Of a DNA stretch of 64,000 bases, positions 27,581 through 37,112 are shown one piece after another. Under the pieces are notes generated by a model. That model searched no databases. It saw only the letters and a list, made by a program, of their open reading frames with translations, and was not told the origin of the DNA. Within the stretch, counting starts at the first letter, position 1; each line of letters starts with the position of its first letter. The stretch comes from Thalassomonas viridans (GTDB lineage: Bacteria > Pseudomonadota > Gammaproteobacteria > Enterobacterales > Alteromonadaceae), in contig NZ_CP059733.1 of the NCBI RefSeq assembly GCF_000948985.2, positions 1,178,001 to 1,242,000 of the forward strand, written 5' to 3'. A program made the translations under genes and the position numbers.

Positions 27581-28714
27581 ATGGAATCCTTAAATACTTT
27601 ATGGCTATCCACTGGCCTGGCCAACTTTGAGCTGGGCCAGATCATTATGATGCTGGTGGGCTGTGGTTTATTGTACCTGGCGATAGCGAAAAGCTTTGAG
27701 CCTTTGCTGCTGGTGCCTATGGGCTTTGGTGCGATATTGACCAATATTCCGGTGGCGGGCTTTTCCGAAGTCGGCGGCCTGTTGCATTATATCTATTATG
27801 CGGGCATAGATACCGGCATTTTCCCGTTGCTGATCTTTATGGGGGTGGGGGCCATGACGGACTTCGGCGCCCTGATTGCTAACCCGAAAACCTTGTTTTT
27901 AGGGGCGGCGGCCCAGTTCGGGATTTTTGCGACCTTATTCGGCGCCATTGCCTTAAATGCCGTGCCCGGTTTTGAGTTCAGCTTAAAAGACGCTTCGGCG
28001 ATCGCCATTATCGGCGGCGCCGACGGTCCGACGGCAATATTCCTGGCGTCGAAACTGGCGCCGGATTTATTAGGGGCGATTGCCGTGGCGGCTTATTCCT
28101 ATATGGCGCTGGTGCCTATTATTCAGCCGCCGATCATGCGTGCCCTGACTACCGAGCAGGAGCGTAAGATAGAGATGTCTCAGTTGCGCCATGTGACTAA
28201 AATCGAGAAAGTGGTTTTCCCGCTGGCGGTATTACTGATGACCATCTTCTTTTTACCGGCGGCAACGCCACTGGTGGGCATGTTCTGCCTGGGCAACCTG
28301 ATGCGTGAATGCGGCGTGGTAGACAGGTTAAGTGCCACGGCGCAGAACGAACTGATCAATATCGTGACTATCTTTTTGGGGTTAGGGGTCGGCTCTAAGC
28401 TGAGTGCCGATAAATTCCTCAATGTTGAAACTTTAGGTATCCTGGGCCTGGGGGCGGTGGCGTTCTCTATCGGTACAGCTTCCGGGGTATTAATGGCCAA
28501 GGTTATGAATAAGCTCTCCAAAGAGCCGATTAATCCCCTGATCGGGGCGGCCGGAGTGTCTGCCGTACCTATGGCGGCGCGGGTGTCGAACAAGGTAGGC
28601 CTGGAAGCCAATCCCCATAACTTTTTGCTGATGCATGCCATGGGACCCAATGTTGCCGGTGTGCTTGGCTCTGCGGTAGCAGCGGGGATATTGTTGGCTT
28701 TAGTTGGCGGATAA
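27581..28714 (+). CDS. oadB: Oxaloacetate decarboxylase beta subunit (Na+ pump)
   Basis: A 377-residue integral membrane protein with about ten hydrophobic segments. [19 protein letters not shown] is the family signature holding the conserved Asp that takes part in carboxybiotin decarboxylation and Na+ transport; [14 protein letters not shown] and [25 protein letters not shown] sections near the end are also diagnostic. It converts the energy of decarboxylation into a sodium gradient across the inner membrane. AGGAAAAGCCG precedes the ATG. A tandem-repeat array follows 78 bp after its stop. Confidence 0.95.
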
Positions 28715-28792
28715 GCGCCGGCAAATCATAGGTTGCAGATAGACTGCCCGGTTCTAAAGGTGAACATAGCCTCTATGCTCACCTTTGTTATA

Positions 28793-29020
28793 TACAGGAT
28801 GTATGGTATGCCGCGGTTGCATGGAAGCAAAGGAGTGGCGGTACAGGATGTATGGTATGCCGCGGTTGCATGGAAGCAAAGGAGTGGCGGTACAGGACGT
28901 ATGGTATGCCGCGGTTGCATGGAAGCAAAGAAGCGGCGATACAGGACGTATGGTATGCCGCGGTTGCATGGAAGCAAAGAAGCGGCGGTACAGTATGTAT
29001 GTTATTGCTCCTGTACAGCT
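28793..29020. repeat. Tandem array of 49-bp repeats, four units plus a degenerate one
   Basis: Four near-identical 49-bp units lie head to tail (28793-28841, 28842-28890, 28891-28939, 28940-28988); a decayed fifth runs to about 29020. Each contains TACAGGATGTA (an 11-base palindrome) and TTGCATGGAAGCAA (stem TTGC/GCAA). Units differ by single changes. A length of 49 is not a multiple of three, so the array is not a coding repeat. There are no unique spacers. On the minus strand each unit reads GCATACCATACATCCTGT, which links it to the 50-bp array at 36.15-36.47 kb. Confidence 0.9.
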
Positions 29021-29236
29021 AAAAACTTTCATCGCCTTCGTCAGATGTTTCATCGTTTCTTCGTTTTTTTCGTTATTTTTTTCAGGCACAGACGCTTGCC
29101 CTGAAACCCCAGGCTAATGCTTGCTTAATAAGTTTTTAATACAAAGGCTTAATTACGCGGCTGTAATACTCCCCGCTTTTGGCATATCCCGTGCTCTGCC
29201 AATACCAGTGTTACGATAAAACTGAAGGTGGTTTTG

Positions 29237-31384
29237 ATGGAATTATTACACATGAGTTTACAGCTGAAAGTTACCTTGCTTAAACGCCTGGCAGTGATAG
29301 GGGGATTAGTTATTTGTGTCTGTTTATTGGTTTCTGGCGGCTTTATCAAGCAGGAAACACAGTTAAACGAGGGCGGTAAAGTTTCTTACCTTATTCAGGG
29401 GCACAGCAGTGCCGTGCTTAAACAACTGGCCCGGCGCCAGCAGCTGGCTGTCAGTCATGAATTGCCTCTGATAAATGCCATTGCCGCCGAGTTAACGCCA
29501 GGTCAGCACGAGCAGCTGCTTAAATCCCCTGAGGTCAGGCGCATTATGGTAAATGCCCGTGTGGCGACTACCGCGGGTGTTGTCGCTGACAGACTGGTCG
29601 GAGAGCCGTTTTTAACTTTTTTTAGAAAAAAGGTCAGCTGGAAGTTCAGGAACAAGAGTGAAAAACAGGCGCGCCTGGCCAGGATTAAATTGTCATGGCC
29701 GGTTGAGAACGGCATTTTGCGGGCTTTTGTGATCAATCATCAAACTGAAATTGACACCCGGGATTTAGCCGTAAGCAGTGACGGCACTTTTAACCATTTA
29801 ATTTTACCGGCTTCACTGTTAGGCAGCAGCGACAGGATAGCTGCCGGTGAGACAATAAAATATAGCATGAAGTTTACTGTCCAGCCGACTACAGACACCG
29901 GGCTTTATTCTATTCTTCTGAGGTTTTCCAAGGATAATTCCAAGTTTGTGTTTGAAGAAGGCCAGGGGCGTTTGCTGGGGGGACATGGTGAAAACCTGCG
30001 TAATACCGAATATCCGGAGGCGGTCGGCGCCGAGCAGTTATATCAGCAGGGGATTAATGGCCAGGGGGTAACGGTAGCCGTGATCGACAGCGGTTTGCGG
30101 GACGTGCTGAAAAGCAGCATGCAAAACATTAAAAAAGGCAACCGCATCAAAGCCTTTTATAATGCTATCGACGATACTTTAGTGGATACCCAGGCATTTG
30201 ACAGCGGCGATGCCGAAGAAAACGGTTATTTGCAGGACGGAAACGGTCACGGCACTCATGTTACTTCGATCATTCTCAGTTTTTTAAAGAACGTGGATCA
30301 GGAAACCGGCCTGGCGAAAACCTCCCGTAACAGCATAGCGCCGAAAGCGAACCTGGTGGCGGTTAAAGCACTGGATGCCAGCGGCCAGGGCAGTTATGCC
30401 GATGTGATCCGGGCGATTGGTTTTGTTGTCGATAACAAGGACAAATATGATATTCGCGTGCTCAACCTGTCTTTGAGCGCGCCGGTAAAATCCCATTACT
30501 GGGACGATCCGTTAAACCAGGCGGTGATGGCTGCGTGGAAGGCGGGCATAGTGGTGGTGGCCTCTGCCGGTAACGGCGGGCCTGATGCCATGAGTATCGG
30601 GGTTCCCGGTAACAACCCTTATGTGATCACCGTAGGCGCCACTTCGGACGCTTACTCCAGTGATTATGCCGACGATGACTTTTTGGCGGCATTTTCCGCA
30701 GCCGGTCCTACCTATGAAGGTTTTGTCAAACCCGATGTGGTGGCCCCCGGTGGTCATATTCTCGGACTGATGCACGGTGATGATCAGCTTGCCCTTGTGC
30801 ATGACAATTATCAGGATGGAGAGGGCTGGTTTATGATGTCGGGCACCTCTCAGGCGGCAGCGATTGTTTCCGGTATTGCTGTGCTGATGATACAGGAAGA
30901 ACTGGACCTGACCCCGGATGATGTAAAATGTCGGCTAATGAGCAGCGCCAAACCTGCAGTGAACAGTCAGGGAGAGTTGGCGGTCAGTGTTTTCCAGCAA
31001 GGGGCCGGTTTGGTTGATGCCTATTGGGCGGTGCACTCTACAGCTATGGGCTGTGCCAACCGGGGGCTGGATATAGAGGCGGATATTGCCGGCACCAGTC
31101 ATTTCGGTGGTTTTGCCAACCAGGATGAGCATGGCAATTATTATGTTCAGGGGCTGGAAGGAAATGGGTATCTTTGGGGAGAAGGCTATCTGTGGTCGGA
31201 CGGCTATTTGTGGTCGGACGGTTATTTATGGGCGGACGGCTATCTGTGGGCAGACGGTTACCTGTGGTCGGACGGTTACCTGTGGTCGGACGGTTATTTA
31301 TGGGCGGACGGCTATCTGTGGTCAGACGGTTACCTGTGGGCAGACGGGAGTATCGAGGCCAATACCTGGGTCAGCCAGGAATAA
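29237..31384 (+). CDS. S8-family subtilase with C-terminal GYLW(S/A)D repeats
   Basis: A 715-residue exported serine protease. A signal or anchor helix (LAVIGGLVICVCLLVSGGF) is followed by an inhibitor-like propeptide region (about 40-110), an unknown beta region (about 125-250) and the subtilisin domain from about 265. The triad is visible: Asp in VAVIDSGL (about 283), His in GNGHGTHVTSI (about 340) and Ser in MSGTSQAAAI (about 538). The C-terminus has ten exact hexapeptides GYLWxD and ends with a short tail. ATG at 29237 is chosen for AAGGTGG just upstream. The tail is not a standard secretion signal such as PPC; its role may be surface or substrate binding. Confidence 0.9.
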   Translation: MELLHMSLQLKVTLLKRLAVIGGLVICVCLLVSGGFIKQETQLNEGGKVSYLIQGHSSAVLKQLARRQQLAVSHELPLINAIAAELTPGQHEQLLKSPEVRRIMVNARVATTAGVVADRLVGEPFLTFFRKKVSWKFRNKSEKQARLARIKLSWPVENGILRAFVINHQTEIDTRDLAVSSDGTFNHLILPASLLGSSDRIAAGETIKYSMKFTVQPTTDTGLYSILLRFSKDNSKFVFEEGQGRLLGGHGENLRNTEYPEAVGAEQLYQQGINGQGVTVAVIDSGLRDVLKSSMQNIKKGNRIKAFYNAIDDTLVDTQAFDSGDAEENGYLQDGNGHGTHVTSIILSFLKNVDQETGLAKTSRNSIAPKANLVAVKALDASGQGSYADVIRAIGFVVDNKDKYDIRVLNLSLSAPVKSHYWDDPLNQAVMAAWKAGIVVVASAGNGGPDAMSIGVPGNNPYVITVGATSDAYSSDYADDDFLAAFSAAGPTYEGFVKPDVVAPGGHILGLMHGDDQLALVHDNYQDGEGWFMMSGTSQAAAIVSGIAVLMIQEELDLTPDDVKCRLMSSAKPAVNSQGELAVSVFQQGAGLVDAYWAVHSTAMGCANRGLDIEADIAGTSHFGGFANQDEHGNYYVQGLEGNGYLWGEGYLWSDGYLWSDGYLWADGYLWADGYLWSDGYLWSDGYLWADGYLWSDGYLWADGSIEANTWVSQE
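31166..31345 (+). repeat. Ten 18-bp coding repeats (GYLW-S/A/G-D/E)
   Basis: Exactly ten 18-bp units encode GYLWGE once, then GYLWSD or GYLWAD nine times. The codons for Gly, Tyr and Leu vary (TAT/TAC; CTT/CTG/TTG/TTA), while the amino acids do not. This shows selection at protein level after expansion, not just recent DNA slippage. Confidence 0.95.
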
Positions 31385-31391
31385 AGGTAAA

Positions 31392-31412
31392 CAGCCCGGC
31401 CTGGCCGGGCTG
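31392..31412. terminator. Strong hairpin between convergent genes
   Basis: CAGCCCGGCC and GGCCGGGCTG pair around one T, giving a 10-bp GC-rich stem between the subtilase stop and the pdxH stop. No T-run follows; it probably acts as a bidirectional terminator with help from other factors. Confidence 0.5.
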
Positions 31413-31440
31413 CATGACGTGAGCGACTATCTTACCGGGG

Positions 31441-32094
31441 TTAAGGGTGCAGTTTATATTGCTGCCAGTTGTCCCCGGCTTTTTCGAAACAGATCCTGTC
31501 GTGCAGACGGCTGGCGCGCCCCTGCCAGAATTCAATGTATTTGGGTTTTACCCGCCAGCCGCCCCAAAATTCAGGGTGAGGTACCTGCTGACCGGCAAAC
31601 TTGTCGTTGAAGTATCTAAACCGGGATTGTAATTCGTTTTCTTCGCTGATCTTCTGACTCTGTTTTGAGGCCCAGGCGCCTACCTGGCTGCCGCGATCCC
31701 GGCTGTGAAAATACTCGGCAGATTCTTCCTGGGTGACTTTTTCAACTTCCCCTTCGATACGGATTTGTCTTTGCAGCACATTCCAGTGAAACAGCAGGGC
31801 AACCTTATTGTTTTCTTCCAATACCTGGCTTTTGCGGCTGGCGTAATTGGTATAAAAGACAAAGCCTTTTTCATCGAAAGACTTCAGCAATACCATACGT
31901 GAACTCGGGTAGCCGTCTTTGGAGCAGCTGCTGATCGACATGGCTTCGGGCAATAAAATGCCTGATTTATTGGCGTCTTTAAACCAGAGGTCGAATAAGG
32001 TGATGGGATCCGTGTCGGCTGAAATTTCCGGTAATGGCAATGCAACACCCTGACCAAAGGTGAAAAGACAGCGCAGTTTTTCTAAAAAAGTCAT
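31441..32094 (-). CDS. pdxH: Pyridoxine/pyridoxamine 5'-phosphate oxidase
   Basis: A 217-residue FMN enzyme that oxidises PNP or PMP to pyridoxal 5'-phosphate, the last step of vitamin B6 synthesis and salvage. Typical blocks: DPITLFDLWFKDA, PSSRMVLLKSFDEKGFVFYTNYASRKS (FMN binding), QIRIEGEVEKV, HSRDRGSQVGAWAS, and the C-terminal WGGWRVKP, EFWQGRASRLHDR. Length equals the E. coli enzyme. It acts as a dimer in the cytoplasm. It lies alone between convergent and tandem neighbours. Confidence 0.95.
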   Translation of the reverse strand: MTFLEKLRCLFTFGQGVALPLPEISADTDPITLFDLWFKDANKSGILLPEAMSISSCSKDGYPSSRMVLLKSFDEKGFVFYTNYASRKSQVLEENNKVALLFHWNVLQRQIRIEGEVEKVTQEESAEYFHSRDRGSQVGAWASKQSQKISEENELQSRFRYFNDKFAGQQVPHPEFWGGWRVKPKYIEFWQGRASRLHDRICFEKAGDNWQQYKLHP

Positions 32095-32201
32095 GAATTG
32101 AGTCAGTTACAGGCTAAAACGAATAAAACAGGGGCGTATAGTAGCAGTTTTTGGCTAAGAGCGGAGAGAAAAAAGGACAATTATCTTGAGTTATTTTGCA
32201 A

Positions 32202-32226
32202 CAGGCCGGCCTTTGGGGCCGGCCTG
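32202..32226 (-). terminator. GC-rich hairpin after the M20 peptidase gene
   Basis: CAGGCCGGCC pairs with GGCCGGCCTG around a five-base loop, 15 bp after the stop of the minus-strand M20 gene. The following T content is low, so strength is uncertain. Confidence 0.55.
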
Positions 32227-32240
32227 CAGTGCTGTCCCTG

Positions 32241-33539
32241 TTATTTCGGGCTTGCCATATAGTCCAGCGTCAGATTGGTGAGCAGCCTGACCCCAAGTTT
32301 CATGCCGCTTTCATCAATACGGAACTCCGGGGTGTGGTGATCCGGGGCCTGGGATTTGGGCATGTTTTTGTCTTTGCCGCCGACAAAGAGATACAGGCCG
32401 GGAACCTGCTCCTGGAAGAAAGAGAAGTCTTCCGCGCCGGTGACGGCACCTGTGACCCTAGCGTTGCCTTCACCTGCGGTGGCTTCAAGCACGGGCAGCA
32501 TTTTACGCATAAGCGACGGGTCGTTATAGGTGATGGGATAACTGTAATCCAGCGGTAAGGTGACTTCGGCGCTGGCATTCATGCTTTGGGCTATGCTGTT
32601 GACCTTGTTATGTACCGCTTTATGGATATGCTGGCGAATATTGGGGTTAAGGGTGCGGATAGTGCCCACCAGTTCCACTTCGCTGGGAATTATGTTGGAG
32701 CGGTTGCCGCCGTGGATCATGCCGATGGTGACTACAGCGGCGCTGTCGATCAGTTCAACTTCTCGGCTGACTATGGTTTGTAAGCCCATGATCACCTGGG
32801 CGGCGGTGACTATGGGATCAACACTGTTCCAGGGATAGGCGCCGTGGGACTGTTTGCCCTTGATTACTACCTTAAAGGGATCAACCGCCGCCATAATACC
32901 GCCCTCGCGGTAATAAACGGTGCCGACATCCTGATCTGAGCTGATATGCAGGCCGAAGATGACATCGACATCGGGAGACTTAAGCACGCCTTCCTTGACC
33001 ATAACTTCAGCGCCGCCGGTTTCCCCCGCGGGCGCCCCTTCTTCTGCCGGCTGGAAGATAAATTTCACTTTCCCTTTTAACTGGTCTTTCATGGTGGTGA
33101 GAATTTTCGCTGCCCCCATCAACATGGCGATATGGGTGTCATGGCCGCAGGCATGCATTACACCGACATCAAAACCTTCATGCGTGGTGCGTACCTTGGA
33201 AGCAAAGGGCAGATCAACCGCTTCCGTAACCGGCAGGGCGTCGATATCCGCCCGCAGGGCAACAACAGGTCCGGGTTTACCCGAGTCGAGCACGGCAACG
33301 ACCCCGGTTTTGGCAATACCGGTTTGTACCTCCAACCCCAGGGATTCAAGATATTTGGCTATGGCCTTTGCGGTTTCGAATTCCCGGTTGGACAGCTCAG
33401 GGTACTGGTGAAAATGGCGGCGCCATTTGATTACGTCACCTTCAATCTGATCCGCTAAACGGTCAACCTGGGAGTTGGTCGCATATGCCGGGGCTGTCAG
33501 GCCAAAGCCAAGTACGAGGGGGAGCAGGATTTTTTTCAT
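32241..33539 (-). CDS. Exported M20-family amidohydrolase (hippurate hydrolase-like)
   Basis: A 432-residue metallopeptidase-fold amidohydrolase with a signal peptide (KILLPLVLGFGLTAPAYA). The metal ligands are in MHACGHDTHIAM (Cys/His pair typical of the IAA-amino acid and hippurate hydrolase branch), FIFQPAEEGAPAGE and FGLHIS; GAEDFSFF and DHHTPEFRIDE close the site. A dimerisation domain occupies about 215-330. It should hydrolyse N-acyl amino acids in the periplasm. Periplasmic location is unusual for the branch but known in marine bacteria. It stands as a single gene. Confidence 0.9.
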   Translation of the reverse strand: MKKILLPLVLGFGLTAPAYATNSQVDRLADQIEGDVIKWRRHFHQYPELSNREFETAKAIAKYLESLGLEVQTGIAKTGVVAVLDSGKPGPVVALRADIDALPVTEAVDLPFASKVRTTHEGFDVGVMHACGHDTHIAMLMGAAKILTTMKDQLKGKVKFIFQPAEEGAPAGETGGAEVMVKEGVLKSPDVDVIFGLHISSDQDVGTVYYREGGIMAAVDPFKVVIKGKQSHGAYPWNSVDPIVTAAQVIMGLQTIVSREVELIDSAAVVTIGMIHGGNRSNIIPSEVELVGTIRTLNPNIRQHIHKAVHNKVNSIAQSMNASAEVTLPLDYSYPITYNDPSLMRKMLPVLEATAGEGNARVTGAVTGAEDFSFFQEQVPGLYLFVGGKDKNMPKSQAPDHHTPEFRIDESGMKLGVRLLTNLTLDYMASPK

Positions 33540-33676
33540 AACTCTCTTTCTTGTTGTTATCGATGAAAAACTAGCTTACTAGATTCAGCAGCTTTGTGCT
33601 AATCGAATAAGAATTCGGCAGGGACTTTTTCCTGGAGACGGGCGCGGACGGGAGCGAGTGTAAAAAGCGACAGGGC

Positions 33677-33850
33677 TTACCAGTCGTCGGTATCATCTAA
33701 CAGCTCTTTGAGTCTTTGCTGTTCTTTGAGTTCGTCGATACGTTTACGTACTTCGCTGTTATGCGCCGCCTGCTCTCCCTGCGGCAGGTCTTTATCGTAA
33801 TCGATCACTTTATTTTTCGGCATCAGATCTTCGGCTGAAAGATTGACCAT
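33677..33850 (-). CDS. Small charged protein, 57 aa, unknown
   Basis: A short acidic-basic protein with a helical C-terminal half (SEVRKRIDELKEQQRLKELLDD, ending DTDDW). No family is recognised. GTG or other starts upstream are possible, but ATG at 33850 has GGGAG five bases before it. The N-terminus (NLSAEDLMPKNKVIDYDKDL) is not membrane-like. Small proteins of this style are common in marine gammaproteobacteria and may bind RNA or other proteins, which is a guess. It lies apart from its neighbours. Confidence 0.6.
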   Translation of the reverse strand: MVNLSAEDLMPKNKVIDYDKDLPQGEQAAHNSEVRKRIDELKEQQRLKELLDDTDDW

Positions 33851-34199
33851 AATACTCCCTCCCTGGGTCAATGTATGTTAAGTAAAATTTTTGCTGCATT
33901 TGATTATTGACCCAACACAATTTGAACATAGGCAATATTTTTTGCTTTTTCAAATTTTGCTGCAGGCGGGTTTGATAACGGCAGTATTTTCCATGTCGGT
34001 CTTTTTGTTTGCTTCCTGATGCTTTCCCGGTTTATTTCTCAGGTTTTCAGTGACAACTTATGTCCTGAAAACCCGGGTTTTAAGCTAAAATGTAGTGAGC
34101 AGCGAACAGCTTGTAAGCTGCGCTTTAAGGAAATCTTTTCGAAGATATTAACGTAAGGACATCGTCGTTAACTGCTGACTTTATTTAAGAGTACATGCT
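33851..34199. other. Intergenic stretch of 349 bases
   Basis: No gene is supported. It holds the divergent promoters of the small gene at 33677 and the gene at 34200. One stem is visible: AGGTTTTCAG pairs with CTGAAAACC around about 34040-34072. Nothing else stands out. Confidence 0.4.
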
Positions 34200-34664
34200 A
34201 TGAATGACGTAGAAAGTAAGAAAGATGTCGAGGTTAAGAACGAGCCTTTAAACAAACGTATGGGCTTAATCGAGGAAAAGCTCAAAAAGTATACCTTGGT
34301 AGGCACCCTGGCCGGCGTGTTACTCGGTGGCGGCGGGGTCTTTGGCGCAGTACAGTGGTTTTACCAGGCACCGTTGGATAAAAAAATAAAGACCTATGAG
34401 TCGGCAATTGCCAGCCTTAAAGGGGTGATTGAGGCCTCAAACAAGGGAGGAGCGAGCGCCGAAGAAGCAAAGGCCTTGCGTATGGAGTTGATAGCCCTGG
34501 ATCGTGATTACCGCAATGCGTTGGGGCTGGTGGCAGAATGCATGGAAATACTGGCAACCCGGGGAATCGACAAGGAATGGCTGCAAAAGGCAGCCAGGCA
34601 ACTGCAGGCCCTGGAGCAGCAAAGGCCGCCTGTGAGTGAAAAAGCCGTCATTCCGGATAAGTAA
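34200..34664 (+). CDS. Hypothetical protein with one membrane span and coiled coil
   Basis: A 154-residue protein of unknown family: a charged cytoplasmic start (DVESKKDVEVKNEPLNKRM), one glycine-rich membrane helix at about 36-58 (LVGTLAGVLLGGGGVFGAVQWF), and a helical, probably coiled-coil region outside it (KIKTYESAIASLKGVIEAS, then LRMELIALDRDYRN). The GGGG in the helix suggests close helix packing or oligomerisation. No partner gene is adjacent. The bulk should be periplasmic if the positive-inside rule holds. Confidence 0.6.
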   Translation: MNDVESKKDVEVKNEPLNKRMGLIEEKLKKYTLVGTLAGVLLGGGGVFGAVQWFYQAPLDKKIKTYESAIASLKGVIEASNKGGASAEEAKALRMELIALDRDYRNALGLVAECMEILATRGIDKEWLQKAARQLQALEQQRPPVSEKAVIPDK

Positions 34665-34838
34665 ATCTCACATTAATATCGCCAGTTTCCTAGCCGGTCA
34701 TCATTTTTGTCATTCCCGGCGCTTTTATCTTCGGCAATTCATTGGTTTGTCCGTTTCAGCTGGTTGCTGATAACCTGCCGTTTTCTTGATAACATAGGGA
34801 TTAAAAGTATAGGGGAATAAAAGCTAAAGGGTGTAACC

Positions 34839-35057
34839 GTGATTATCAGGTTTAATGTTTTTGGCAGGCAGATGTCTGTCCACCAGAAAGATCAGCAATG
34901 GCTGCTCTTTAATGAATCGGATACCGGCATGTCTTCGCGTGTATATGACGTTGTTATTCCTGCGGATCTAACCCGGGATGATCTGGCCGGTTACCTTGAT
35001 GATATTTACCATGAATATGCCACCGACAAGTATCCGGAAGTGGTTGAGCTAGTTTAG
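34839..35057 (+). CDS. Conserved small protein, 72 aa (DUF7661-like)
   Basis: A compact soluble protein: MIIRFNVFGRQMSVHQK at the start, then SSRVYDVVIPADL, and the acidic end LAGYLDDIYHEYATDKYPEVVEL. This pattern recurs in short conserved proteins of gammaproteobacteria (DUF7661 from memory, not certain). The GTG start is supported by AAAGGGTG. No function is known. The stop adjoins a degenerate copy of the MITE-like repeat. Confidence 0.6.
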   Translation: MIIRFNVFGRQMSVHQKDQQWLLFNESDTGMSSRVYDVVIPADLTRDDLAGYLDDIYHEYATDKYPEVVELV

Positions 35058-35200
35058 GGGCTGTTTAGTTGGGATTGTGGATGATTGTTGGATTGCTTGT
35101 ACAGCTGCCGGCGTTAGCATAATGTTATCCGGGGCGCGTCCATTTTTCTGTTTTAAATGGGTAAGCACCGCTTGAAAGTCTTATTTCCTTCCTCAGGCAG
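35058..35200. repeat. Diverged relative of the 162-bp hairpin repeat
   Basis: The stretch shares scattered blocks in the same order with the repeat at 8587-8748: GGGCTGTTTA at the left edge, CGGCGTTAG, then CGTCCATTTTTCTG, then ACCGCTTGAAAGTCTT against ACCGCTCAAAAATCTT. The perfect terminal inverted repeat has been lost, so this is a decayed copy or a relative of it. Like the intact copy it sits directly after a stop codon. Confidence 0.5.
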
Positions 35201-35233
35201 ACCCAATTTTTTAAATCTGACAGGCAGTTACAT

Positions 35234-36115
35234 TTGAATATTCTGATCACAGGCAGCGCCGGCCGGGTAGGGCGGGCCATTTACATTCACATGATGAAAA
35301 CACACCGGGTGACAGGTGTGGACAAAACCCCTTGCTCGACGGCAGATATTGTCGGGGATATCCGGGACAGTGAGCTTATGGAAAAAGCCCTGGAGGGGAT
35401 TGATGTGGTTGTTCATACGGCGGCATTACATGCCCCTCATGTCGGTTTGCTTGCCGATGAAGAGTTTGAAGCTGTCAATGTCAAAGCCACGGAAAAACTG
35501 GCGCTGTCAGGCCTGCAGGCCGGGATTAAGCATTTTGTTTTTACCAGTACCACCGCCCTTTACGGCAGGGCATCGACCCCTGACGGGAGCGCGGGCTGGG
35601 TGGATGAAACGGTTATCCCAAAGCCAAAAACCATCTATCATAGATCTAAGCTTGAAGCGGAAAAGTTGCTGGAAAACATATCGCATTTGTTTGCGTTGCC
35701 GGTTACCGTGCTGCAAATGTCCCGCTGTTTTCCCGAGCCGGCAGATTTAATGGCGGTATACCGGCTTACCCGCGGTATAGATGCCAGGGATGTCGCCCGT
35801 GCCCACGGCTGTGCGGTAGAAAAACGTTTACCTGGCTTTAACCGCTTTATTGTTTCAGGCCGGACCCCTTTTAATCCCGGCTTATGCCAGCGCCTGTTTA
35901 CGGATGCAGCCGATGTGATCCCTGAATATGCACCGGCACTGGCACAGGAGTTTGCCCGCCGGGGCTGGTCTTTGCCCTTAAGCCTGGATCGGGTGTATGA
36001 TTCGGCGCTGGCGCAGCAGCTCCTGGATTGGCAGCCTAAATACGGTTACTTGAGTGTTCTGGAAATGCTGGATAATGAGATGGCGGAGGTGTTGCCATTA
36101 CCGGCTTTGCCTTGA
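35234..36115 (+). CDS. NAD-dependent epimerase/dehydratase family protein
   Basis: A 293-residue extended short-chain dehydrogenase. NILITGSAGRVGRAI is the GxxGxxG dinucleotide motif; VVVHTAALHAP, then FVFTSTTALYG and YHRSKLEAE give the Ser/Tyr/Lys catalytic set (YHRSK). The substrate is unknown, most likely a nucleotide sugar or a small ketone. It starts with TTG at 35234 after CAGGCAGT; no ATG lies near the conserved N-terminus. The stop is followed by the 50-bp tandem-repeat array. Confidence 0.85.
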   Translation: MNILITGSAGRVGRAIYIHMMKTHRVTGVDKTPCSTADIVGDIRDSELMEKALEGIDVVVHTAALHAPHVGLLADEEFEAVNVKATEKLALSGLQAGIKHFVFTSTTALYGRASTPDGSAGWVDETVIPKPKTIYHRSKLEAEKLLENISHLFALPVTVLQMSRCFPEPADLMAVYRLTRGIDARDVARAHGCAVEKRLPGFNRFIVSGRTPFNPGLCQRLFTDAADVIPEYAPALAQEFARRGWSLPLSLDRVYDSALAQQLLDWQPKYGYLSVLEMLDNEMAEVLPLPALP

Positions 36116-36150
36116 TGGTTTTTCTTTAGTGTTTTTTGACTGCTTGGTTA

Positions 36151-36466
36151 TGTACATCCTATTCGTTGCTGTTCCATGACATCCTGTCATCACAGCATAC
36201 CGCACATCCTGTGCATCGCTGTTCCATGACATCCTGTCACCACAACATACCGCACATCCTGTGCATCGCTGTTCCATGACATCCTGTCACCACAGCATAC
36301 CGCACATCCTGTGCATCGCTGTTCCATGGCATCCTGTCACCACAGCATACCGCACATCCTGTGCATCGCTGTTCCATGACATCCTGTCACCACAGCATAC
36401 CGCACATCCTGTGCATCGCTGTTCCATGACATCCTGTCACCACAGCATACCGCACATCCTGTGCAT
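36151..36466. repeat. Tandem array of 50-bp repeats, about six units
   Basis: The period is exactly 50: GTTCCATG recurs at 36171, 36221, 36271, 36321, 36371 and 36421. The first half unit (36151-36170) is degenerate. Each unit contains two short palindromes with the same loop: TGACAtccTGTCA and GCACAtccTGTGC. The block GCATACC-N2-ACATCCTGT is shared with the minus strand of the array at 28793. A length of 50 is not a multiple of three and there are no variable spacers. Confidence 0.95.
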
Positions 36467-36500
36467 AAAAAAAGCACCTGATGGGAGACAGGTGCTTTTT
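36467..36500 (-). terminator. Terminator of the nap operon
   Basis: AAGCACCTG pairs with CAGGTGCTT around an eight-base loop; on the minus strand it is followed by seven T. It lies 25 bp after the napC stop and directly abuts the tandem-repeat array. Confidence 0.9.
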
Positions 36501-36524: not shown

Positions 36525-37112
36525 TTACCAGCCTTCAACTCCTTTCATGTCAGGCAGGTGATGGGCAATCCCTTTGTGACAGTCGATACAGGTTTTTTCA
36601 CCGCTGGCCAGCGAGGTGGAATGCTGCTTGGCTGCCCGCTGGCTTTGACTGGTGAAATCCATGTAGTCAAAGTTGTGGCAGTTACGGCATTCCAGCGAGT
36701 CATTGGCCTTAAGGCGGCGCCATTCGTTTTCGGCCAGCCTGCGACGCTGGGCGAGAAACTTCTCCCGGGTATTAATGGTACCGAAGATCTTACCCCAGAC
36801 TTCTTTTGAAGCCTGCATTTTCCGGGCGATTTTGTCGGTCCACTTGTGGGGCACATGGCAGTCAGGACAGGTGGCCCGCACACCGGAGCGGTTGGTAAAA
36901 TGTATCGTGGTTTTCAGTTCCTCATAGACATTGTTTTCCATCTCATGGCAGGAAATACAAAACTCTTCGGTATTGGTGAGTTCCAGTGCGGTATTAAAGC
37001 CACCCCAGAAAATCACCCCGGCGATAAACCCCCCGATAACCAAAGCACCTAAGCTGTAATAACCGCTGGGTTTTTTCAGGGTTTGCCAGCCAATTTTTAT
37101 GATGTTTTTCAT
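36525..37112 (-). CDS. napC: Tetraheme cytochrome c NapC
   Basis: A 195-residue NapC/NirT quinol dehydrogenase. An N-terminal membrane helix ([19 protein letters not shown]) anchors four CxxCH heme sites: [24 protein letters not shown] and CIDCHKGI. It takes electrons from the quinol pool and passes them to NapB-NapA in the periplasm. It is the last gene of napEFDABC, 9 bp after napB, and is followed by a strong terminator. Confidence 0.95.

Follow-up and report, generated by a model that had tools for sequence, protein, structure and literature searches.

The window analyzed here, a stretch of 64,000 nucleotides of the Thalassomonas viridans genome (contig NZ_CP059733.1, positions 1,178,001 to 1,242,000), contains two related tandem-repeat arrays, each adjoining the intrinsic terminator of a protein-coding gene. 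Tandem Repeats Finder recovers array A at 28793-29005 (period 49 bp, 4.3 copies, 95% matches) and array B at 36154-36466 (period 50 bp, 6.3 copies, 96% matches), as an initial annotation of the sequence had described them. On the strand that carries GGA in its loops (the GGA strand), the ~50-bp unit consists of two hairpins, HP1 and HP2, joined by a GGTAT linker; array A comprises four 49-bp units with this strand on plus, and array B six 50-bp units with it on minus. Both arrays had been placed after a plus-strand gene, which holds for array A behind oadB; array B instead lies directly against the terminator of napC on the minus strand, the plus-strand gene being on its other side. The features of the two loci are listed below, with unit scores from our search model R1.

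27581..28714, plus strand: oadB, Na+-transporting oxaloacetate decarboxylase beta subunit (Pfam OAD_beta, 531 bits); its terminator bears array A
28756..28786, plus strand: oadB intrinsic terminator hairpin (direct sequence reading; fold energy -12.8)
28784-28791, plus strand: T-run of the oadB terminator, TTTGTTAT, short and interrupted (longest T-run 3), merging into array A
28789..28841, plus strand: array A unit 1, HP1 + GGTAT + HP2 (R1 75.4 bits)
28842..28890, plus strand: array A unit 2 (R1 50.6 bits)
28891..28939, plus strand: array A unit 3 (R1 50.8 bits)
28940..28988, plus strand: array A unit 4 (R1 49.4 bits)
to about 29016, plus strand: degenerate HP1 remnant after array A unit 4 (Tandem Repeats Finder; sequence reading)
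36525..37112, minus strand: napC, NapC/NirT-type cytochrome c (Pfam Cytochrom_NNT, 265 bits); its terminator bears array B
36473..36496, minus strand: napC intrinsic terminator hairpin (direct sequence reading; fold energy -15.0)
36472 down to about 36466, minus strand: U-tract of the napC terminator (T-run 7), with array B immediately next
36416..36467, minus strand: array B unit 1, adjoining the terminator (R1 71.4 bits)
36366..36415, minus strand: array B unit 2 (R1 58.1 bits)
36316..36365, minus strand: array B unit 3 (R1 53.5 bits)
36266..36315, minus strand: array B unit 4 (R1 58.1 bits)
36216..36265, minus strand: array B unit 5 (R1 55.0 bits)
36166..36215, minus strand: array B unit 6 (R1 54.6 bits)
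to about 36151, minus strand: partial HP1 beyond array B unit 6

As had been noted at the outset, the unit lengths of 49 and 50 bp are not multiples of three and nothing separates one unit from the next. The missing spacers rule out a CRISPR-like reading of the arrays, and the unit lengths, together with the covarying stems, rule out a coding repeat. Within the window, no Rfam match at gathering level and no tRNA (ARAGORN) is found.

The anatomy of the unit was derived from an alignment (A1) of 16 units, each from a different genomic place. HP1 follows the plan [stem]-A-GGA-X-[stem] and leads into the GGTAT linker, behind which come a 5-bp outer stem, GG or GA, the inner HP2, an ARGA-type bulge and the closure of the outer stem; HP2 itself reads [stem]C-A-(N)-GGA-X-G[stem]. 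The unit holds three helices, HP2 being a bulged hairpin, and its invariant or nearly invariant columns include both GGA loops and the linker. The mini-palindromes with a TCC core that the initial annotation had pointed out are indeed hairpins, but the informative strand is the complement, and each unit contains three helices. Standard base pairs occupy 92.4% of the pair cells, compared with a mean of 73.8% after shuffling, and 11 of the 15 pairs show changes on both sides (shuffled mean 5.8); none of 500 shuffles attains either value, which bears out the preserved pairing of changing arms that had been proposed. Cells changed on both sides number 46, against 10.2 in the shuffles, and the count of further pair types (21 versus 18.1, reached by 50 of 500 shuffles) is the one less telling measure of the five. 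Shifting one side of the stems by 1-3 columns leaves only 16-46% pairing, a control favoured by the structure having been drawn from the same sequences. A de novo RNAalifold fold concurs, with 14 pairs, 10 of which carry double changes, and five units folded singly adopt the drawn structure (z-scores of -1.9 to -3.7).

In the stems of three alignments, loop-closing pairs excluded, G.U outnumbers A.C by 137:47 (39:17, 57:19 and 41:11), a count in which the units are not independent and which the model slightly shifts in favour of G.U. Because of this excess, the GGA strand is very probably the one that folds.

The family extends throughout the 7.9-Mb genome. Model R1 finds at least 155 matches, with 150 candidates scored, and the 150 listed units fall into 71 places, so that the pattern is not confined to the two arrays of the window. 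At 38 of the 71 places only a single unit is listed, and up to seven occur elsewhere; this count derives from the 150 listed matches, and a few of the single-unit places have weaker neighbours below the list. Of the dispersed tandem hairpin family proposed at the start, dispersal and compensatory changes are upheld, whereas tandem repetition is not the basic form. The word ACATCCTGT occurs 122 times in the genome, compared with 13 for the reversed control. Its extended block GCATACC-N2-ACATCCTGT, correctly recognized as common to both arrays in opposite orientation, is present seven times in the window (five on plus in array B, two on minus in array A) and 30 times in the loci of this genome that we examined, some of which overlap. 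The linker reads GGTAT in 85 of the 115 units of this genome with the HP1 loop motif, and mostly TGTAT or AGTAT in the others.

What the initial annotation lacked is the common rule of placement: the elements directly follow intrinsic terminators and are co-oriented with them. Counted over 69 of the 71 places, at least four T lie directly 5' of the first unit at 61, compared with a mirror A-run on the 3' side at one; array A, with three T, is among the eight exceptions. In 96% of the places, the 44 nt that precede the element fold with an energy of -10 kcal/mol or below, as against 29% of random stretches from the same loci. The nearest upstream gene lies on the same strand at 62 places, with a median distance of 58 nt between stop codon and element. 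A T-run is likewise present at 32 of 42 sites in two congeners and at 15 of 23 sites in other genera, all found without requiring T, and several of the exceptions there retain the terminator hairpin with a shorter T-run. Sites from a scan of named genomes were kept out of this count, since the scan pattern itself contained TTTTAT. Of 20 upstream genes scanned, ten score above a curated NCBIfam cut-off (ilvC, rpoD, RnfH, rpmE (L31), pstS, phoR, leuD, glnS, acetyl-CoA ligase and methylmalonate-semialdehyde dehydrogenase), seven lie below the cut-offs and three have no match. We regard it as near certain that the family is real, large, structured and bound to terminators.

Such a position invites the explanation that the element backs up the terminator or acts at the mRNA 3' end, by stopping or destabilizing read-through RNA or by shielding the gene from opposite transcription. 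The units directly abut terminators, and the downstream gene is convergent at 36 of the 69 places and co-directional at 33. However, no T-run follows the units that were read, a generic stopper could do without the two conserved GGA loops and the GGTAT linker, and a six-unit array in the congener G003 (locus L135) stands where the terminator hairpin has shrunk; we consider a back-up function improbable.

The elements are also strongly oriented with respect to replication. On the main contig (C1), the GGA strand is plus at 28 of 34 places below 3.36 Mb and minus at 32 of 34 above, and the GC skew changes sign between 3.23 and 3.79 Mb in the stretches examined, that at 2.41 Mb being near zero. 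Because the strand switch at 3.36 Mb agrees with the GC-skew switch, the GGA strand is read as running with the replication fork at 60 of the 68 main-contig places. In the loci examined, elements are co-oriented with the fork at a ratio of 59:8, compared with 272:218 for genes of at least 150 amino acids. No listed element place falls on C1 between 2.56 and 3.80 Mb, a 1.24-Mb stretch that surrounds the inferred replication terminus. The second contig (C2, 1.2 Mb) has only three listed places; two of its arrays (C2:6166-6267 and C2:1172282-1172383, loci L059 and L060) have equal scores and an identical upstream flank of 49 nt, which suggests a duplicated stretch on this contig. Elsewhere in the window, a subtilase gene (29228-31384) has an internal 18-bp/72-bp repeat at 31169-31347 (Tandem Repeats Finder score 281), whose period is a multiple of three.

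Outside this genome the distribution is patchy. Matches occur in 21 of 59 relatives and are absent from the other 38. All four genomes of the genus have at least 93 matches each (at most 98 candidates were scored), and the other positive relatives have 46, 23, 19, 13, 12 and fewer. A scan of named genomes yields at least 119 stretches, many from Gammaproteobacteria; among the matches listed are Colwellia, Cognaticolwellia, Thalassomonas, Rheinheimera, Bowmanella, Marinobacterium, Amphritea, Neptunomonas and Bermanella, as well as Solemya symbionts, Sedimenticola, Thiolapillus, Pseudohongiella, Woeseiaceae and Bdellovibrionales/Bacteriovoracaceae. In the 80 named-genome stretches searched with it, model R1 has 125 matches. 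A sample of 397 genomes across the phylum, with at most 14 candidates scored in each, includes 27 positives; ten of these belong to a single genus outside the class (g151). Nine loci of this genus (L368-L370, L374-L376, L380, L381 and L384) have an AAATG/GAATG-type linker and do not stand behind T-runs, and several g151 loci adjoin a repeat of the CTTTGCGT/ACGCAAAG type.

Orthologous terminators reveal both gain and persistence. The oadB and napC terminators exist in the congeners G001, G002 and G003 without such an element directly behind them; because these same terminators carry none, the lineage studied here has probably acquired both window arrays. Downstream of napC in G001 (locus L418), a different double-hairpin module with the linker TGCTTA lies further downstream. 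Other sites are shared with the T. viridans genome at the same place and strand, namely 10 of 21 sampled in G001 and 8 of 21 in G003, the samples being the best-scoring listed sites and not a random draw. These counts leave out L307, an ambiguous paralogue, and L342, matched via the repeats themselves, and they include L316 although its partner here, L051, is a weak match (21 bits). Tandem copy number at shared sites differs between genomes; the RnfH locus, for example, has one, three or six units. At one bidirectional terminator (L177, 3001-3053; L317, 6001-6053), the element stands on one side here and on the other side in G001.

Eleven shared loci, one of which involves another genus, allow 21 pairwise comparisons, in which 179 of 273 stem pairs are identical. 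Of the 94 changed pairs, 58 have changed on both sides and 20 on one side with pairing kept, and 16 (13 + 3) have an unpaired partner; arm changes thus mostly preserve pairing, as a structured family had been expected to do. The GGA loops are intact in 52 of 54 cases, while the stem letters agree at only 391 of 546 positions. Either selection maintains pairing and loops in place, or repeated conversion or re-insertion does. The same figures bear on a site in duplex DNA for a nucleoid protein or the like (IHF, gyrase or a REP-binding protein, REP standing for repetitive extragenic palindromic). Palindromes, dispersal and the strong orientation relative to the fork would fit such a site; the stem letters, however, vary freely with pairing mostly kept, and the G.U/A.C asymmetry indicates that one strand folds by itself as a single strand, which makes a duplex site very improbable. 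In this respect the initial suggestion, which spanned RNA processing, the nucleoid and protein binding, was too broad, as the evidence favours an RNA site of the CsrA type over a duplex DNA element.

We considered two kinds of known enzyme as the source of mobility. The transposase domain of RAYT/IS200-type enzymes, Y1_Tnp, is encoded by 14 of the 21 genomes that bear elements and by 20 of the 38 that do not; it is not found in G001, G003, G007, G008, G010, G011 and G027, of which G001, G003 and G027 are element-rich. None of the 20 Y1_Tnp loci examined contains an element at E<=0.01. Five of these loci scanned for repeats (L344, L345, L349, L356 and L357) have unrelated flanking inverted repeats of the GGGGTCAG or GGGGCCAG type, and Y1_Tnp genes between such repeats resemble the TIRYTs described in PMC3733652. 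The group II intron maturase (PF08388) occurs in 6 of the 21 genomes with elements and in 5 of the 38 without, and is not found in the element-rich G002, G004, G006, G008, G010 and G027. The spread of the elements is explained neither by RAYTs nor by group II introns.

The units themselves receive insertions. In examples read by eye, a second double-hairpin module on the opposite strand (…GGATG…TACTTA…GGA…) lies between GGT and AT of the linker (L386, L314, L321 and L264), and in L242 a nested module lies between GG and AT of a loop. The second module type, with the linker TACTTA or TGCTTA and GGA loops (L039 at about C1:204466-204620, L386, L314, L321, L187, L264 and L418), is often antisense inside the GGTAT linker and sometimes tandem by itself.

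These observations bring up a purely selfish element, similar to REPs or miniature inverted-repeat transposable elements, in which the single-stranded hairpin would serve a transposase or recombinase, with T-tracts of the lagging-strand template as insertion sites; the GGA loops would then be recognition features of the enzyme, with no function for the host. The patchy distribution, the missing window arrays at the same terminators of three congeners, the strong fork-oriented bias and the insertion of other hairpin modules at GG|AT or GGT|AT all suit this explanation. On the other hand, the presence and absence of Y1_Tnp and group II maturase, and the 20 Y1_Tnp loci, disclose no such enzyme among these two; unlike inert insertions, the stems stay paired and the GGA loops are kept at orthologous sites; and the loop agrees with a published CsrA site. 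We judge selfish DNA without host function to be unlikely, although it carries appreciable weight.

The loops of both hairpins resemble binding sites of the RNA-binding regulator CsrA. Of 121 distinct units of this genome, 115 have in HP1 and 104 in HP2 an A(N)GGAX loop closed by a C-G pair, N and X being free; in two congeners the figure is 83 of 89 for either hairpin. These shares are somewhat flattering because the units were found with a GGA-containing model. In the named genomes, the HP1 share (85 of 90) is not used as evidence, since the search pattern required that loop; HP2 there has it in 71 of 90. The CsrB repeat CAGGA(U/A/C)G and the consensus from systematic evolution of ligands by exponential enrichment match the loop core as well. 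The high-affinity CsrA/RsmE site is an ANGGAX hexaloop directly atop a stem, according to PMC4005645. Each unit would accordingly offer two putative sites of the CsrA/RsmA type, ~26 nt apart.

Searches with the Rfam CsrB model place three arrays next in rank to three candidate CsrB-like small RNAs (sRNAs), all of which score under the 71-bit gathering score of RF00018:

C2:705672-706020, plus strand: CsrB-like sRNA candidate L443 (67.7 bits; 21 GGA motifs on the sense strand)
C1:2153569-2153902, minus strand: CsrB-like sRNA candidate L444 (55.9 bits)
C1:1889972-1890242, plus strand: CsrB-like sRNA candidate L445 (39.5 bits; 15 GGA motifs on the sense strand)

The terminator of the third candidate itself carries the element (C1:1890239). 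The following ranks are taken by the arrays at C1:4251040, 1800394 and 1665802, with E values of 0.004, 0.007 and 0.024. A search of four arrays against the whole of Rfam gives one CsrC match (E 0.028, 20.7 bits, gathering score 61). CsrA (PF02599) is encoded in all 27 element-positive genomes of the phylum sample and in 199 of the 397 overall; in T. viridans its gene lies at C1:5497999-5498154. Judged from motif and structure, binding of CsrA by the element RNA is likely.

With modest confidence, we favour a REP-like double-hairpin element that is gained recurrently and whose terminator read-through RNA binds CsrA. As a plausible mechanism, the element would be placed immediately 3' of an intrinsic terminator, with the same orientation as the gene that ends there, and would then expand in tandem. 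RNA polymerase reading through the terminator would produce a transcript tail with hairpins, to which CsrA could bind, each copy acting as a small CsrB-like decoy or as a CsrA recruiter on the read-through RNA. The more the host gene is transcribed, the more decoy there would be; tandem expansion would add sites, and dozens of loci together could form a decentralized CsrA buffer. That the elements act physiologically as a distributed CsrA sponge we put at somewhat short of an even chance. More tentatively still, they may represent an undescribed class of mobile element, with a CsrA-binding RNA module as payload and the intrinsic terminator as target, a distributed sponge that evolves by transposition and tandem duplication. 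In such a mobile sponge, central genes, including one CsrB-like sRNA gene, could conceivably supply the read-through RNA, a part of the scheme that we hold just as tentatively.

CsrA binding, read-through transcription and titration are the steps that we infer, and several observations weigh against them. The element lies behind the terminator, and its RNA is therefore made only by read-through. DNA hairpins prefer G.T over A.C in the same way, and the excess of G.U could also stem from the GGA strand folding as single-stranded DNA, which it does not separate from RNA. In g151, the same double hairpin occurs without a preceding T-run at the loci read. The best array reaches only 20.3 bits with the CsrB model, far from the gathering score; the same search has a non-array match at E 0.1 in this genome and, for 8 of the 14 control genomes, weak matches (E<=10), and the other three of the four arrays searched against all of Rfam have no match of the Csr type. 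Co-occurrence with CsrA is confounded by phylogeny (nine families). The fork bias (59:8) and the occurrence in only 21 of 59 relatives would suit selfish DNA without regulation. A precedent speaks for the read-through reading: in E. coli, transcription beyond the first rrn terminator yields the RrA/B/F RNAs, whose hairpin loops contain GGA and which bind CsrA in vitro. The phenotypes that PMC8144298 attributes to them are only modest, however, which counts against it.

If the CsrA reading holds, CsrA titration in many marine Gammaproteobacteria would involve one to three sRNA genes together with a mobile repeat family, CsrA levels would be coupled to terminator read-through genome-wide, and REP-like repeats would have a concrete regulatory role. 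Even if the partner is not CsrA, base-exact placement of a hairpin family at terminator T-runs, attributable neither to a RAYT nor to a group II intron, constitutes an unexplained mode of mobility.

In the titles and abstracts searched, a coverage that excludes subscription papers, we found no mention of this family or of repeats that scatter CsrA sites among terminators, and the comparison with known systems is one of partial likeness. With CsrB/CsrC/RsmX/Y/Z (Rfam clan CL00106), the elements share serial hairpins and A(N)GGAX/CAGGA(A,T)G loops. In contrast to these RNAs, they occupy dozens of loci behind the terminators of other genes and no single dedicated sRNA gene, are built from a ~50-bp double-hairpin unit with a GGTAT linker, are patchy and mobile-like, and stay far below the gathering score. 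Group IIC introns also insert just after intrinsic terminator hairpins; they are large ribozymes with a reverse transcriptase, whereas the maturase is absent from several element-rich genomes. The double-hairpin elements of mitochondrial DNA are likewise small, dispersed and presumed mobile, and they are organellar; we know of no terminator targeting or CsrA motif in them. The RrA/B/F RNAs resemble the proposed read-through RNA in origin and in their GGA hairpin loops, CsrA binding in vitro being a property of RrA/B/F; in the account of PMC8144298, they are three near-identical rrn copies between two terminators, unlike the dispersed, tandem ~50-bp units described here. The REP superfamilies were compared through PMC3733652 and PMC12306157. 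Like the GTAG and CGTC REPs (PMC3733652), the elements are short extragenic palindromes in many dispersed copies, mostly 3' of genes and patchy in occurrence. The CGTC REPs are described as lacking a dedicated transposase and as consisting of a CGTC tag, an 8-9 bp stem, a 4-5 nt loop and a CCA tail (PMC3733652). No GTAG or CGTC tag is present in the window units, the linker at the hairpin foot is mostly GGTAT in place of the GTAG tetranucleotide, and alignment A1 contains neither a CGTC tag nor a CCA tail. Unlike REPs, and with no RAYT association found among the genomes compared, the elements combine two hairpins per unit and conserved GGA loops with a placement at the T-runs of terminators.

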